Source of the DNA: a virus
Length of the DNA: 26,899 bases
Strand: one strand, 5' to 3'
Virus record (IMG/VR): IMGVR_UViG_3300025674_000307
Coordinates: 1-26,899 of that record
The number at the start of each line of letters is the position of its first letter. The first letter of the stretch is position 1. Below, in pieces: positions 12,117 to 24,593 of the stretch. The notes under the pieces are model-generated. The model had not been told where the DNA came from and ran no database searches. It saw only the letters and a list, made by a program, of their open reading frames with translations. Position numbers and translations under genes: made by a program.

Positions 12117-12989
12117 ATGAATACCTATGTAGTGGAAGGTGGGATAGGTAAGTGTACTGCATTTACAGCTTTAATTCCTAAGCTAAAACAAAAATCCGAA
12201 GTACAAATCTACACACCTTACATTGGGTGCTTTGCAAATAATCCTGATGTGAAATTAGTATTAGAACAATCTTTGCCAATCCAAGACCCAAGAATTATGG
12301 CATCAGATAATATCTATTATTCTGAACCTTATAAATCTAATTTTCAGTTTGGCAAACAACATATCATTGAAAGCTATTGCGAACTTCACAATGTAGAATT
12401 TGATATAAATATGAAACCAAAACTCTACACAGAACATCTAAAGGAAAATGTAGATAAATGGTTAAAAGAAAAAGAAATAAACAAATATATTCTCATTCAA
12501 TTTAGTGGTGGACAATCTCCTATTACTTACAATGGTCAATACAATAACATTAACCCAAACAGAAACTATCAACCATTTCTTGCACAACAAGTAATTAATT
12601 ATTTAAAAGAAGAATATAAAGATGTAACCATTATTGATTGTACCTTACCTAATGAACCAGCATACTTTAATACTATTAAATGTGATTTGCATTGGACAGA
12701 AGTACATGAGTTATTAAAAGATGCAGAAACCTTTGTAAGCATAGACAGTTGCTTAAATCACTTTTCAGCATCAACAGAAAAGCATGGAGTAGTGATTTGG
12801 GGTTCAACTAGATGGACACAATTTGGCTATAGCCATAATACTAATTTACAATTCCACATGAAAGATAAGTGGGAAGATGAGAAATTCATTGATAGCGACC
12901 CTAGAAACAATATGGTAGAACCTAAATTAGTTATTGATGAATTAAAAAAAATTGATAAAAGCAAACCAGTTGCAGTAGCAACAAACTAA
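12117..12989 (+). CDS. GT9-like glycosyltransferase (heptosyltransferase fold)
   Basis: A 290-residue protein with the two signatures of the GT-B family GT9 (ADP-heptose:LPS heptosyltransferase type). The N-terminal glycine loop is GGIGKCTAFTALIPKLK (residues 8-24). The C-terminal sugar-nucleotide region has FVSIDSCLNHFSAS followed by VVIWGSTRWTQFGY (about residues 206-235). In cellular members the fold adds sugars to lipopolysaccharide. The usual D in the GxGD loop is replaced by K, so donor or activity may differ. Set right after the tail fibre, it could glycosylate virion proteins or alter host surface glycans to block superinfection; both are inference. No good Shine-Dalgarno precedes the ATG, six bases after the previous stop. 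Confidence 0.72.
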   Translation: MNTYVVEGGIGKCTAFTALIPKLKQKSEVQIYTPYIGCFANNPDVKLVLEQSLPIQDPRIMASDNIYYSEPYKSNFQFGKQHIIESYCELHNVEFDINMKPKLYTEHLKENVDKWLKEKEINKYILIQFSGGQSPITYNGQYNNINPNRNYQPFLAQQVINYLKEEYKDVTIIDCTLPNEPAYFNTIKCDLHWTEVHELLKDAETFVSIDSCLNHFSASTEKHGVVIWGSTRWTQFGYSHNTNLQFHMKDKWEDEKFIDSDPRNNMVEPKLVIDELKKIDKSKPVAVATN

Positions 12990-12998
12990 GGAGAAACT

Positions 12999-13247
12999 AT
13001 GGAAGAAAATGTAAAAACAGCAGAAGAAATAGCTCAAGATTATAAAGCTATGGGTGATTCAGTAGAATTAATCAATGGTGTTATTGATGGTTCAAAAATG
13101 GCAGATGAATCTGAAGAAGATAAAAAAGATACTGTGAAAAGAAATGTTGAACACTTAGAAATCATGGTAGCTAAAGATTACTGGACTAACGAAGATATGA
13201 CTGCTGTTAATGCTGCTATCTCTGCTGGTAATAATTATACTAATTAA
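12999..13247 (+). CDS. Small acidic conserved phage protein
   Basis: An 82-residue protein with AAGGAGAAACTATG as ribosome site. The pattern TAEEIAQDYKAMGDSVELIN and DTVKRNVEHLEIM, ending in NEDMTAVNAAISAG, matches a family of small acidic helical proteins commonly found in the tail region of marine phages. No function is known to me. Its stop is followed within 28 bases by the promoter of the next unit. Confidence 0.65.
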   Translation: MEENVKTAEEIAQDYKAMGDSVELINGVIDGSKMADESEEDKKDTVKRNVEHLEIMVAKDYWTNEDMTAVNAAISAGNNYTN

Positions 13248-13274: not shown

Positions 13275-13303
13275 TTGACTTTATTGCGGTGCAACATTAT
13301 ATG
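13275..13303 (+). promoter_or_regulatory. Sigma70-like promoter of the 45-residue gene
   Basis: TTGACT at 13275-13280 and TATATG at 13298-13303 are separated by exactly 17 bases. The -35 box matches the consensus at five of six positions and the -10 at four of six. It lies about 48 bases upstream of an ATG and is the clearest promoter-like pair I found inside the late operon. Confidence 0.6.
13284..13294 (+). promoter_or_regulatory. TTGC-GGT-GCAA operator candidate (PhaR-like)
   Basis: TTGC and GCAA form a perfect dyad with a three-base spacer, located between the -35 and -10 boxes where a repressor would block polymerase. TGC/GCA dyads are, as I recall, the type of site reported for PhaR, the alphaproteobacterial repressor of phasin genes. 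The link to PhaR is inference. Confidence 0.45.
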
Positions 13304-13350
13304 GCAACGCATGATACCTTATAACAACGAAGAAATGGAGTGGTTAAGCT

Positions 13351-13488
13351 ATGTTTGATAACTGGTTAAAAAACTTTGATGTATTGGATTACAAAACAGT
13401 AAAAAATAATTTTGTAGAATACAATCAAAAAGTAAAAAAGTTTTGGACAGACTTCTTTGAAGATGTCTTTTCTGACAAGAAAAAATAA
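13351..13488 (+). CDS. 45-residue phasin-like amphipathic protein
   Basis: A short frame starting ATG with GGAG ten bases upstream. The product begins MFDNWLKNFDVLDYKTVKNN, has a middle EYNQKVKKFWTDFF and ends EDVFSDKKK. Aromatic residues alternate with Lys/Asp/Glu in a way that predicts amphipathic helices able to coat a hydrophobic surface. The N-terminus and length resemble a truncated phasin, the protein that coats polyhydroxyalkanoate granules, but similarity is by eye only. The gene has its own promoter (13275-13303), a dyad in that promoter and its own terminator (13508-13549), unlike its neighbours, which share transcripts. It therefore looks like an independent accessory unit (a moron). 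Confidence 0.6.
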   Translation: MFDNWLKNFDVLDYKTVKNNFVEYNQKVKKFWTDFFEDVFSDKKK

Positions 13489-13507
13489 TTACAACAAATT
13501 AATTCTA

Positions 13508-13549
13508 TACCCTGCTTTATTTACATGATAAAGTGGGGTATTTCTTTAT
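13508..13549 (+). terminator. Intrinsic terminator of the phasin-like unit
   Basis: TACCCTGCTTTAT (13508-13520) pairs with ATAAAGTGGGGTA (13528-13540) over 13 bp including two G-U pairs, with a seven-base loop and a T-rich tail TTTCTTTA. It ends only a few bases before the ATG of the next gene at 13557. Confidence 0.75.
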
Positions 13550-13556
13550 CTACCCT

Positions 13557-13883
13557 ATGGCTAATACTTATAAGAACGCATTTTTTGATTTAACCACAAC
13601 TAGCAAAACTGATGTTTATACTTGTCCTGCTGAAACCACTTCTTTAGTCAGAACGATACAAGTTACTAATCATGCAGGTTCTAATCCTGAATTAGAAGTA
13701 TTTGTTTATGATGCTTCTGCATCTACAGAATACGAAATATCTCATAGTGTTATAACATCTAAAACATATCAAAACATGATTACCCATACTCTTGTTTTAG
13801 AAGCTGGAGATATTTTAAGGATGCAAGCAAATACAGCAAACGCAATCAAAGGTTTTATCAGTACATTAGAAATAGATTTCTAG
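13557..13883 (+). CDS. Small beta-rich virion protein
   Basis: A 108-residue protein. The frame is open from a GTG at 13533, but that codon lies inside the terminator stem, and the ATG at 13557 gives the natural start MANTYKNAFFDLTTTSKTDV. The rest (YTCPAETTSLVRTIQVTNHA, LEVFVYDASASTEYEIS, GDILRMQANTANAIKGFIS) has the strand pattern of small tail or decoration proteins common in marine phages. No Shine-Dalgarno is visible before the ATG. Position ahead of the internal virion genes supports a structural role. Confidence 0.65.
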   Translation: MANTYKNAFFDLTTTSKTDVYTCPAETTSLVRTIQVTNHAGSNPELEVFVYDASASTEYEISHSVITSKTYQNMITHTLVLEAGDILRMQANTANAIKGFISTLEIDF

Positions 13884-23271: not shown

Positions 23272-23592
23272 TTACGATGTTTTATTAAACAGCATAGGAA
23301 CATGACTACCTAATACTGTATCTTGAAAGACATCATATGAACTTTCAAAATTCTGTATTATCTTTCTAGGCAGAGTATTTACATCTGCATGAAAGAAAAA
23401 ATCTATTGGTTTATCTAAAAGGTTGGCAATCTTTAACAGATTAGTAGAAGATATTTCTATCTTACCCTTTTCATATTTTTGTATGCATTGATGAGTAACA
23501 CCAAGTTCTTTAGCTATAGCAGCTTGTGTCATTCTTTTTTCAAATCTTGCACTAGCTATCCTTTTACCCATGTCAAGTTTTAAGTTATCCAT
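23272..23592 (-). CDS. XRE/Cro-CI family transcription regulator
   Basis: A 106-residue DNA-binding protein. The helix-turn-helix is clear: MGKRIASARFEKRMTQAAIA, KELGVTHQCIQKYEKGKIEI, then NLLKIANLLDKPIDFFF. The C-terminal 30 residues may mediate dimerisation. I chose the ATG at 23592 (MDNLKLDMGKRI) because AAAGGA lies eight bases upstream; the frame continues to 23622 without a better site. It is the last gene of the leftward operon and has an inverted repeat 38 bases upstream that could be its operator. It may control a lytic switch or early gene shut-off. No integrase was seen in the window. Confidence 0.88.
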   Translation of the reverse strand: MDNLKLDMGKRIASARFEKRMTQAAIAKELGVTHQCIQKYEKGKIEISSTNLLKIANLLDKPIDFFFHADVNTLPRKIIQNFESSYDVFQDTVLGSHVPMLFNKTS

Positions 23593-23629
23593 TTTATACA
23601 TCCTTTCTTTTTGAGCAAACAATGCCTAT

Positions 23630-24001: not shown

Positions 24002-24292
24002 TTATTTTCCAAACTCATTAACTTTATATTCCCTGTTATATTGTAAATTCAATGTCAATGCAACTTGTTTTTGGTTCATTCTAATTTTTCTATGAGATGA
24101 ATTTCCTTTGCTAATTAATCCTAAACGGAATAATTCCATAACAATGACACCTGCTCTTGCTCTTGTAAAACCTAGTTTTTTAGCTATTTCTGCAAGGGTT
24201 GGTGAGTATTCATGTTCTTTAATAAACTGTTTAATGTAGTTCAACACATCAAACTTAACTTTAGATAAATAAATATAATCTTTGCTATTCAT
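24002..24292 (-). CDS. Winged-helix DNA-binding protein, LexA-N-like
   Basis: A 96-residue protein from ATG 24292, which overlaps the previous stop by eight bases and has AAAGGAA before it. Residues about 10-62 form a winged helix: KFDVLNYIKQFIKEHEYSPT, LAEIAKKLGFTRARAGVIVM, ELFRLGLISKG. This is the LexA N-terminal pattern (helix, YSPT turn, recognition helix), without the protease domain. It probably regulates phage or host genes. It is the second DNA-binding protein of the leftward operon. Confidence 0.72.
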   Translation of the reverse strand: MNSKDYIYLSKVKFDVLNYIKQFIKEHEYSPTLAEIAKKLGFTRARAGVIVMELFRLGLISKGNSSHRKIRMNQKQVALTLNLQYNREYKVNEFGK

Positions 24293-24593
24293 GCTTTCCT
24301 TTTGGTTTAACAATTAAATTAGTTACACCTGATTCATTTTGATTATTTATGTCAAACCCTTTGCTCTTAATCTTTTCTAAATACTCAATACATTTCTCTA
24401 TGTACTTTAATGACTTCTTCATATCCATTAAGCATTTATCTATATCCCTACCGCCTTTTTCTCCAAAACGAAATAAGTGTTTTGCAACACAACCTTTCAT
24501 ATAACCAACTACCTCACCAGGAGATAGTTGGCTTATGATGGCATCCCAAGTTTCTATACTTTTTTTATAGTGATTAGGATTATCGGATTCCAT
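24285..24593 (-). CDS. DUF3310 family protein
   Basis: A 102-residue protein starting at a TAATG junction. The conserved block is NPNHYKKSIETWDAIISQL, then GYMKGCVAKHLFRFGEKGG and CLMDMKKSLKYIEK, which matches DUF3310 (a phage family sometimes fused to nucleotide kinases). The family is common in phage replication regions and its biochemical role is unclear. A basic C-terminal tail (NLIVKPKGKHE) is outside the domain. Position between recombination and regulatory genes supports an early function. Confidence 0.82.
   Translation of the reverse strand: MESDNPNHYKKSIETWDAIISQLSPGEVVGYMKGCVAKHLFRFGEKGGRDIDKCLMDMKKSLKYIEKCIEYLEKIKSKGFDINNQNESGVTNLIVKPKGKHE

Follow-up and report, generated by a model that had tools for sequence, protein, structure and literature searches.

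Why would a phage place a 45-codon gene with a promoter of its own among its late genes, and in what state of the host would that gene be read? The locus lies in a 26.9-kb viral record (26,899 nucleotides; hereafter, the window) that encodes an SU10-type portal protein and a major capsid protein and whose nearest cultured relative, judged by the capsid (57.6%), is pelagiphage HTVC106P. It is flanked upstream by a short open reading frame (ORF) at positions 12999-13247 and downstream by a plus-strand late-region gene (phrog_1276; 13557-13883) that also lies 3' of the corresponding unit in L314, L258, L315, and L326. The original prediction described the locus as a moron with its own promoter, ribosome site, and terminator, encoding an amphipathic, phasin-like protein that might act on PHA granules.

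The gene unit itself is confirmed, as all of the predicted elements are present on the plus strand: a sigma70-like promoter, TTGACT-17-TATATG (13275-13303), in which a 17-nt spacer separates the -35 element TTGACT (13275-13280) from the -10 element TATATG (13298-13303); a GGAG ribosome-binding site (13337-13340); the 45-amino-acid (aa) gene (13351-13488; ATG at 13351 and stop codon at 13486-13488); and an intrinsic terminator (13507-13541), consisting of a hairpin of 15 pairs followed by TTCTTT. Two features had been overlooked, namely, a palindrome within the promoter spacer (13284-13294) and a leader ORF (13311-13358). In consensus scans, 31 promoter-like sites were observed in 10 kb versus 43.6 expected, and 6 terminator-like sites versus 4.9 expected; the promoter at 13275-13303 was not listed because TATATG does not have the final T. 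Since promoter and terminator elements alone do not rise above chance in such scans, we relied on comparison with relatives.

These comparisons place the unit above chance and delimit it. In L007, the block from the -35 element to the stop codon is 100% identical to that of the window (217 nt), whereas identity falls to 49% on the upstream side, where the DNA is unrelated, and to 89% on the downstream side. In L314, the slot holds a different subfamily of the mini-gene, and yet all 68 of the 68 nucleotides after the stop codon are identical to those of the window, terminator included, and the next three genes are 92% identical; the terminator is, therefore, part of the slot rather than of the gene. 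This identity, together with the presence of the terminator in just 4 of the 24 relatives checked that carry the promoter box described below, rules out the terminator as a part of the mobile unit. The independently regulated accessory unit that was originally proposed is thus upheld, and it is swapped horizontally, with the qualification that its promoter travels with the gene and its terminator stays behind. The cassette is exchanged between related genomes with a sharp upstream edge at the -35 element, which doubles as the boundary of the mobile segment. The proposed survey of the locus in relatives, which turned up this exchange in L314, also turned up an absence: HTVC106P has no mini-gene at the corresponding place, where gp47 and gp46 overlap. 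The location of the mini-gene varies among genomes and includes the tail region, the lysis region, and the head-gene region (L094 and L087).

The 45-aa ORF is a real gene under purifying selection. Homologues occur in over 100 viral contigs: scans of viral contigs returned 39 and then 88 loci, 80 of which were kept, and a search for a sister subfamily (MFNNPFK..) returned 73 loci. With tblastn, the ORF is matched in the cultured pelagiphage HTVC025P (54%, E=7e-6) within a gap between annotated genes; this unannotated 48-aa homologue occupies L002:4001-4147, which corresponds to MH598799.1 33654-33800. Members of the family are 40 to 49 aa long and share a set of invariant or nearly invariant residues (Y14, K18, N25, K27, F31, W32, D34, and D38), and in most scorable pairs dN is far smaller than dS (e.g., 0.012 versus 0.54 and 0.11 versus 0.49).

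The amphipathic character that had been anticipated for the protein is borne out by prediction. AlphaFold2 models two helices, at residues 3-12 and 14-44, with moderate confidence (mean pLDDT of 74 and pTM of 0.39), and the aromatic-rich, amphipathic helix has a hydrophobic moment exceeding that of shuffled sequences (p=0.009). The structure prediction thus supplied the two amphipathic helices that were looked for, although these yielded no fold match among solved structures. The proposed resemblance to phasins did not hold at the sequence level, where profile searches matched no phasin model: against the families concerned (PF09361, TIGR01841, and kin), the protein agrees in being small and, by prediction, amphipathic and alpha-helical, but it fails the profile test, so that membership in a phasin family is not established. 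Direct phasin homology was rejected after searches that came back empty against Pfam, NCBIfam, and PHROGs and against the PDB by both sequence profile and fold. Searches of 84,980 species genomes with short exact peptide patterns likewise recovered no cellular relative, although a diverged host phasin could escape this type of search. A holin or membrane lysis protein was also rejected as a candidate, given a net charge of about +1, no hydrophobic span, and no transmembrane or strongly cationic character.

What, then, connects this gene to storage granules? The spacer palindrome, TTGCGGTGCAA (13284-13294, plus strand, between the -35 and -10 elements), is the sole perfect TTGCN3GCAA in the window. 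In bacteria that make PHB, PhaR represses phasin genes until PHB granules draw it off the DNA, and published PhaR sites adjoin the -35 elements of phasin genes. Such sites read TGCRNYGCASMA in Bradyrhizobium diazoefficiens (PMC6201568) and WNWD2NYGCRNYGCRNH2WNW in Sinorhizobium meliloti (PMC12542648); TGCGGTGCAACA is one substitution away from TGCRNYGCASMA and appears in the list of sites in PMC6201568. The operator core in the window, TGCRNYGCA, equals the PhaR consensus from these two alphaproteobacteria. With a matrix built from 15 sites in S. meliloti promoters that bind PhaR efficiently, positions 13279-13299 score highest in the window, 6.4 bits over the next match. Of 40 random windows, 4 contained a site reaching that score, so that a single site is only suggestive, and we therefore tested its conservation from two opposite directions. 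(A possible weak second half-fit, GGCAACGCA at 13303-13311 on the plus strand, can be made out by eye against the relaxed consensus NGCN3GC[GA] of PMC10888616 but is absent from the top matrix hits in the window.)

Proceeding from protein to DNA, we find that, of the 38 distinct combinations of protein and promoter yielded by a protein-only search for the sister subfamily, 36 have a box within 120 nt upstream, versus 1 of 416 control upstream regions from the same contigs, figures to be read with the caveats that the eight seed proteins were first met via the box scan and that many of the 38 are closely related, one 40-aa protein being common to 16. The box-bearing loci contain 19 distinct 17-mers, with centers AAC, GTT, GGT, ACC, and ATT, a variety that speaks against recent common descent as the sole explanation. 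The two arms of the palindrome do not covary symmetrically more than in shuffles, and covariation is, therefore, not used as evidence. Within the window's own subfamily, the box precedes 4 of 48 members, versus 0 of 1408 controls. The other 44, including HTVC025P, are box-less and are placed behind tail-fiber genes; these relatives, such as HTVC025P on HTCC1062, may either point to a wider role of the protein or be read with the late genes. Box-less versions (L015-L046) follow many different tail-fiber C termini and retain AAAGGAGTAAACT as a conserved ribosome site, which gives the small gene the look of an anchor for fiber exchange.

Proceeding from DNA to protein, viral contigs were scanned at the DNA level only for TTGACT-N1-7-TTGCRNYGCA-N1-7-TATA, which yielded 54 stretches, 33 of them intergenic (i.e., with the site in no stop-free frame of at least 420 nt). 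Members of the mini-protein family, divergent relatives of the 45-aa protein among them, stand behind 16 of the 33 intergenic sites (one runs off the end of its sequence). Three sites head proteins of 83 to 90 aa that are phasin-like by inspection, one heads an IbpA-type HSP20, and the rest head assorted genes, DUF3563-like ones among them. A decoy box of equal composition yielded 21 stretches, 4 of which were intergenic and none of which preceded a family member, and when the family profile was run on 50,060 ORF segments from all loci collected, the only matches beyond the known family were ORFs directly behind box promoters. An earlier form of the pattern with a fixed 3-nt gap, which excludes the window, had given 14 matches, none of them promoter-like ahead of a small phasin-like gene. 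Because the DNA-only and protein-only searches agree, we consider the spacer palindrome, which fits the PhaR consensus of the literature, to be an operator conserved in relatives. The window and its relatives thereby display two features expected of the PhaR regulon, i.e., an operator TGCRNYGCA(SMA) at the promoter and its retention across genomes, from which we infer that PhaR would bind the predicted operator at 13284-13294.

Larger phage proteins that resemble phasins are likewise encoded behind promoters of this kind. Three of the six members of an 85- to 90-aa group touch Phasin_2 weakly (E=0.007, below the cutoff), and searches of named phages and plasmids did not recover the phasin-like protein of 89 aa. 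This core of 85 to 90 aa, with weak Phasin_2 similarity and PhaR-box promoters, occurs in L125, L151, L248, L240, L135, and L141, some of which are very large phage contigs. In L268 (2930-3471), a PhaR-box promoter lies immediately 5' of a phage IbpA/HSP20 gene; in other bacteria, IbpA is a protein of PHB granules (PMC10646324). PhaR-like boxes in L247, L269, L136, L257, L120, and L123 head small proteins of 47 to 63 aa that are DUF3563-like by eye. A phasin reading of the 45-aa protein is favored because three observations converge, namely, the PhaR-type operator, the larger phasin-like phage proteins behind like promoters, and the amphipathic predicted helix. A link to PHB granules, in line with what was first suggested for this locus, is likely.

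Between promoter and gene lies the leader ORF, MIPYNNEEMEWLSYV (15 codons; 13311-13358, plus strand), which begins close to where transcription is expected to start and runs into the first codons of the 45-aa gene. It is kept in L302-L304, L307, L308, L310, and L311 and, more loosely, in L313 and L271; leader ORFs of this type are 14 to 16 residues long and overlap the mini-gene start in most of those loci. Its conservation in both subfamilies indicates that it may belong to the functional unit, possibly through a leaderless start and translational coupling.

The hosts of these phages are plausibly brackish and freshwater SAR11, an assignment by relatedness only. Genomes of brackish (IIIa) and freshwater (LD12) SAR11 often carry phaABC together with a phasin, and PHB production has been demonstrated in an LD12 strain; SAR11 PHB metabolism was experimentally confirmed only in 2025, in a paper that leaves PhaR unmentioned (PMC12113158). 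The explanation that we favor, and hold to be probable, is that the unit is a phage-borne, PhaR-gated mini-phasin that is fired when the host holds PHB. In a PHB-free cell, host PhaR would occupy the palindrome between the -35 and -10 elements and keep the promoter shut; in a cell holding PHB, granules would pull PhaR from the DNA, and host RNA polymerase could read the gene at once, outside of the late program. The 45-aa amphipathic, helical product would then coat the granule surface. Phasins are needed for PHB mobilization, and in Ralstonia eutropha and Rhodospirillum rubrum they help depolymerase to act on PHB (PMC5658603), so that a phage phasin could speed carbon release; the likeliest benefit would be a granule opened to depolymerase, with the stored carbon and reducing power put to phage replication. 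PHB production by the host, binding of the protein to the granules, and the direction in which PHB would be affected are all inferred.

Each part of this explanation has competitors. The box might be the operator of some other regulator that recognizes TTGC-N3-GCAA, be it a repressor of the phage or another factor of the host, and the gene behind it might be an accessory gene of the ordinary sort with no tie to PHB, a view to which the window's HTH proteins (23272-23622 and 24002-24313), the still putative presence of PhaR in the hosts, and the like boxes heading DUF3563-like and other small genes lend some credit. A phage repressor would, however, have several operators, whereas this site is unique in the window by the 6.4-bit gap, and its core is exactly the PhaR consensus, common to phasin-like and HSP20 genes; we regard this alternative as unlikely. 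Gating by PhaR might also be correct and the granule coat wrong, with the product binding PhaR or PhaC or with the leader peptide and the small protein together switching the PHB program on or off. The amphipathic, aromatic-rich helices suit a surface binder, and phasin models are touched by the larger proteins that such promoters head, which leaves this version improbable despite the very short protein without a phasin profile and the conserved leader peptide encoded alongside it.

The remaining competitors dispense with storage altogether. In L185, L253, L246, L252, L276, and L129, the gene lies just 3' of a small membrane protein and near endolysin-like genes, as might be expected if it encoded an amphipathic membrane peptide that helps lysis beside holin and endolysin; but the charge and the lack of a hydrophobic span given above do not fit, the slot is far from lysis genes in the window, L314, and L258, and a PHB-type operator would be senseless for the timing of lysis, so that we give this view only a slim chance. 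Slimmer still is the chance of a virion or tail-fiber accessory protein (a chaperone or adaptor) made with the late genes, a role suggested by box-less members, HTVC025P among them, that lie directly 3' of tail-fiber genes and have a strong ribosome site but lack a promoter. Against it stand the varying location of the gene across tail, lysis, and head-gene regions, its own regulated promoter in the window, and its exchange independently of fiber genes.

Cyanophage genes placed under the host regulator PhoB via pho boxes offer one precedent for a PhaR-gated phage gene, with the difference that the present case involves a storage-polymer repressor and a phasin-like gene, not phosphate genes. 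Phage genes under a host nutrient-status regulator are known (PMC10976474), as are phage-borne PHA genes (phaC, phbB, and others) from PHA-producing mixed cultures that are predicted to act on PHA metabolism (PMC12013262). The latter are enzyme homologues recognized via annotation, and neither phasins nor PhaR operators were reported there. Alphaproteobacterial PhaP genes under PhaR/AniA (S. meliloti phaP1 and phaP2; B. diazoefficiens phaP1 and phaP4) likewise have a TGCRNYGCA core by a sigma70 -35 element and a small amphipathic, helical product; by comparison, the present gene is phage encoded, specifies 40 to 49 aa rather than over 100 aa, has no profile similarity, and stands singly without pha neighbors. 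For such a short protein, the MinP/BioF segment of the Pseudomonas putida phasin PhaF, which is short and able by itself to bind PHA granules (PMC7267194), is a parallel, although it is an engineered fragment, and the likeness is that of a short amphipathic helix, with no sequence relation claimed. Morons share with the unit a promoter of their own, insertion between late genes, and exchange among relatives but differ in that here the terminator is that of the slot and the promoter holds a host-type operator.

Whether widespread aquatic phages, many of them plausibly on SAR11, carry storage-sensing cassettes, in which PhaR would silence a mini-phasin until the cell holds PHB and granule takeover would then free carbon, is to us an evenly balanced proposition. 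If so, phages of abundant brackish and freshwater bacteria would read and act on host carbon storage, which no paper that we found describes; our literature search likewise found no account of phage phasins under PhaR. Virus infection would be tied to PHB turnover in SAR11, and infected cells would run different programs with and without PHB. A PhaR box inside a promoter may serve as a sequence signature for phage genes that homology tools miss because of their shortness, and the cassette offers very short natural candidates for granule binding. Within the tail region of the window, upstream of the cassette, positions 12117-12989 hold a gene resembling glycosyltransferase family 9 (Pfam E=8.9e-6).
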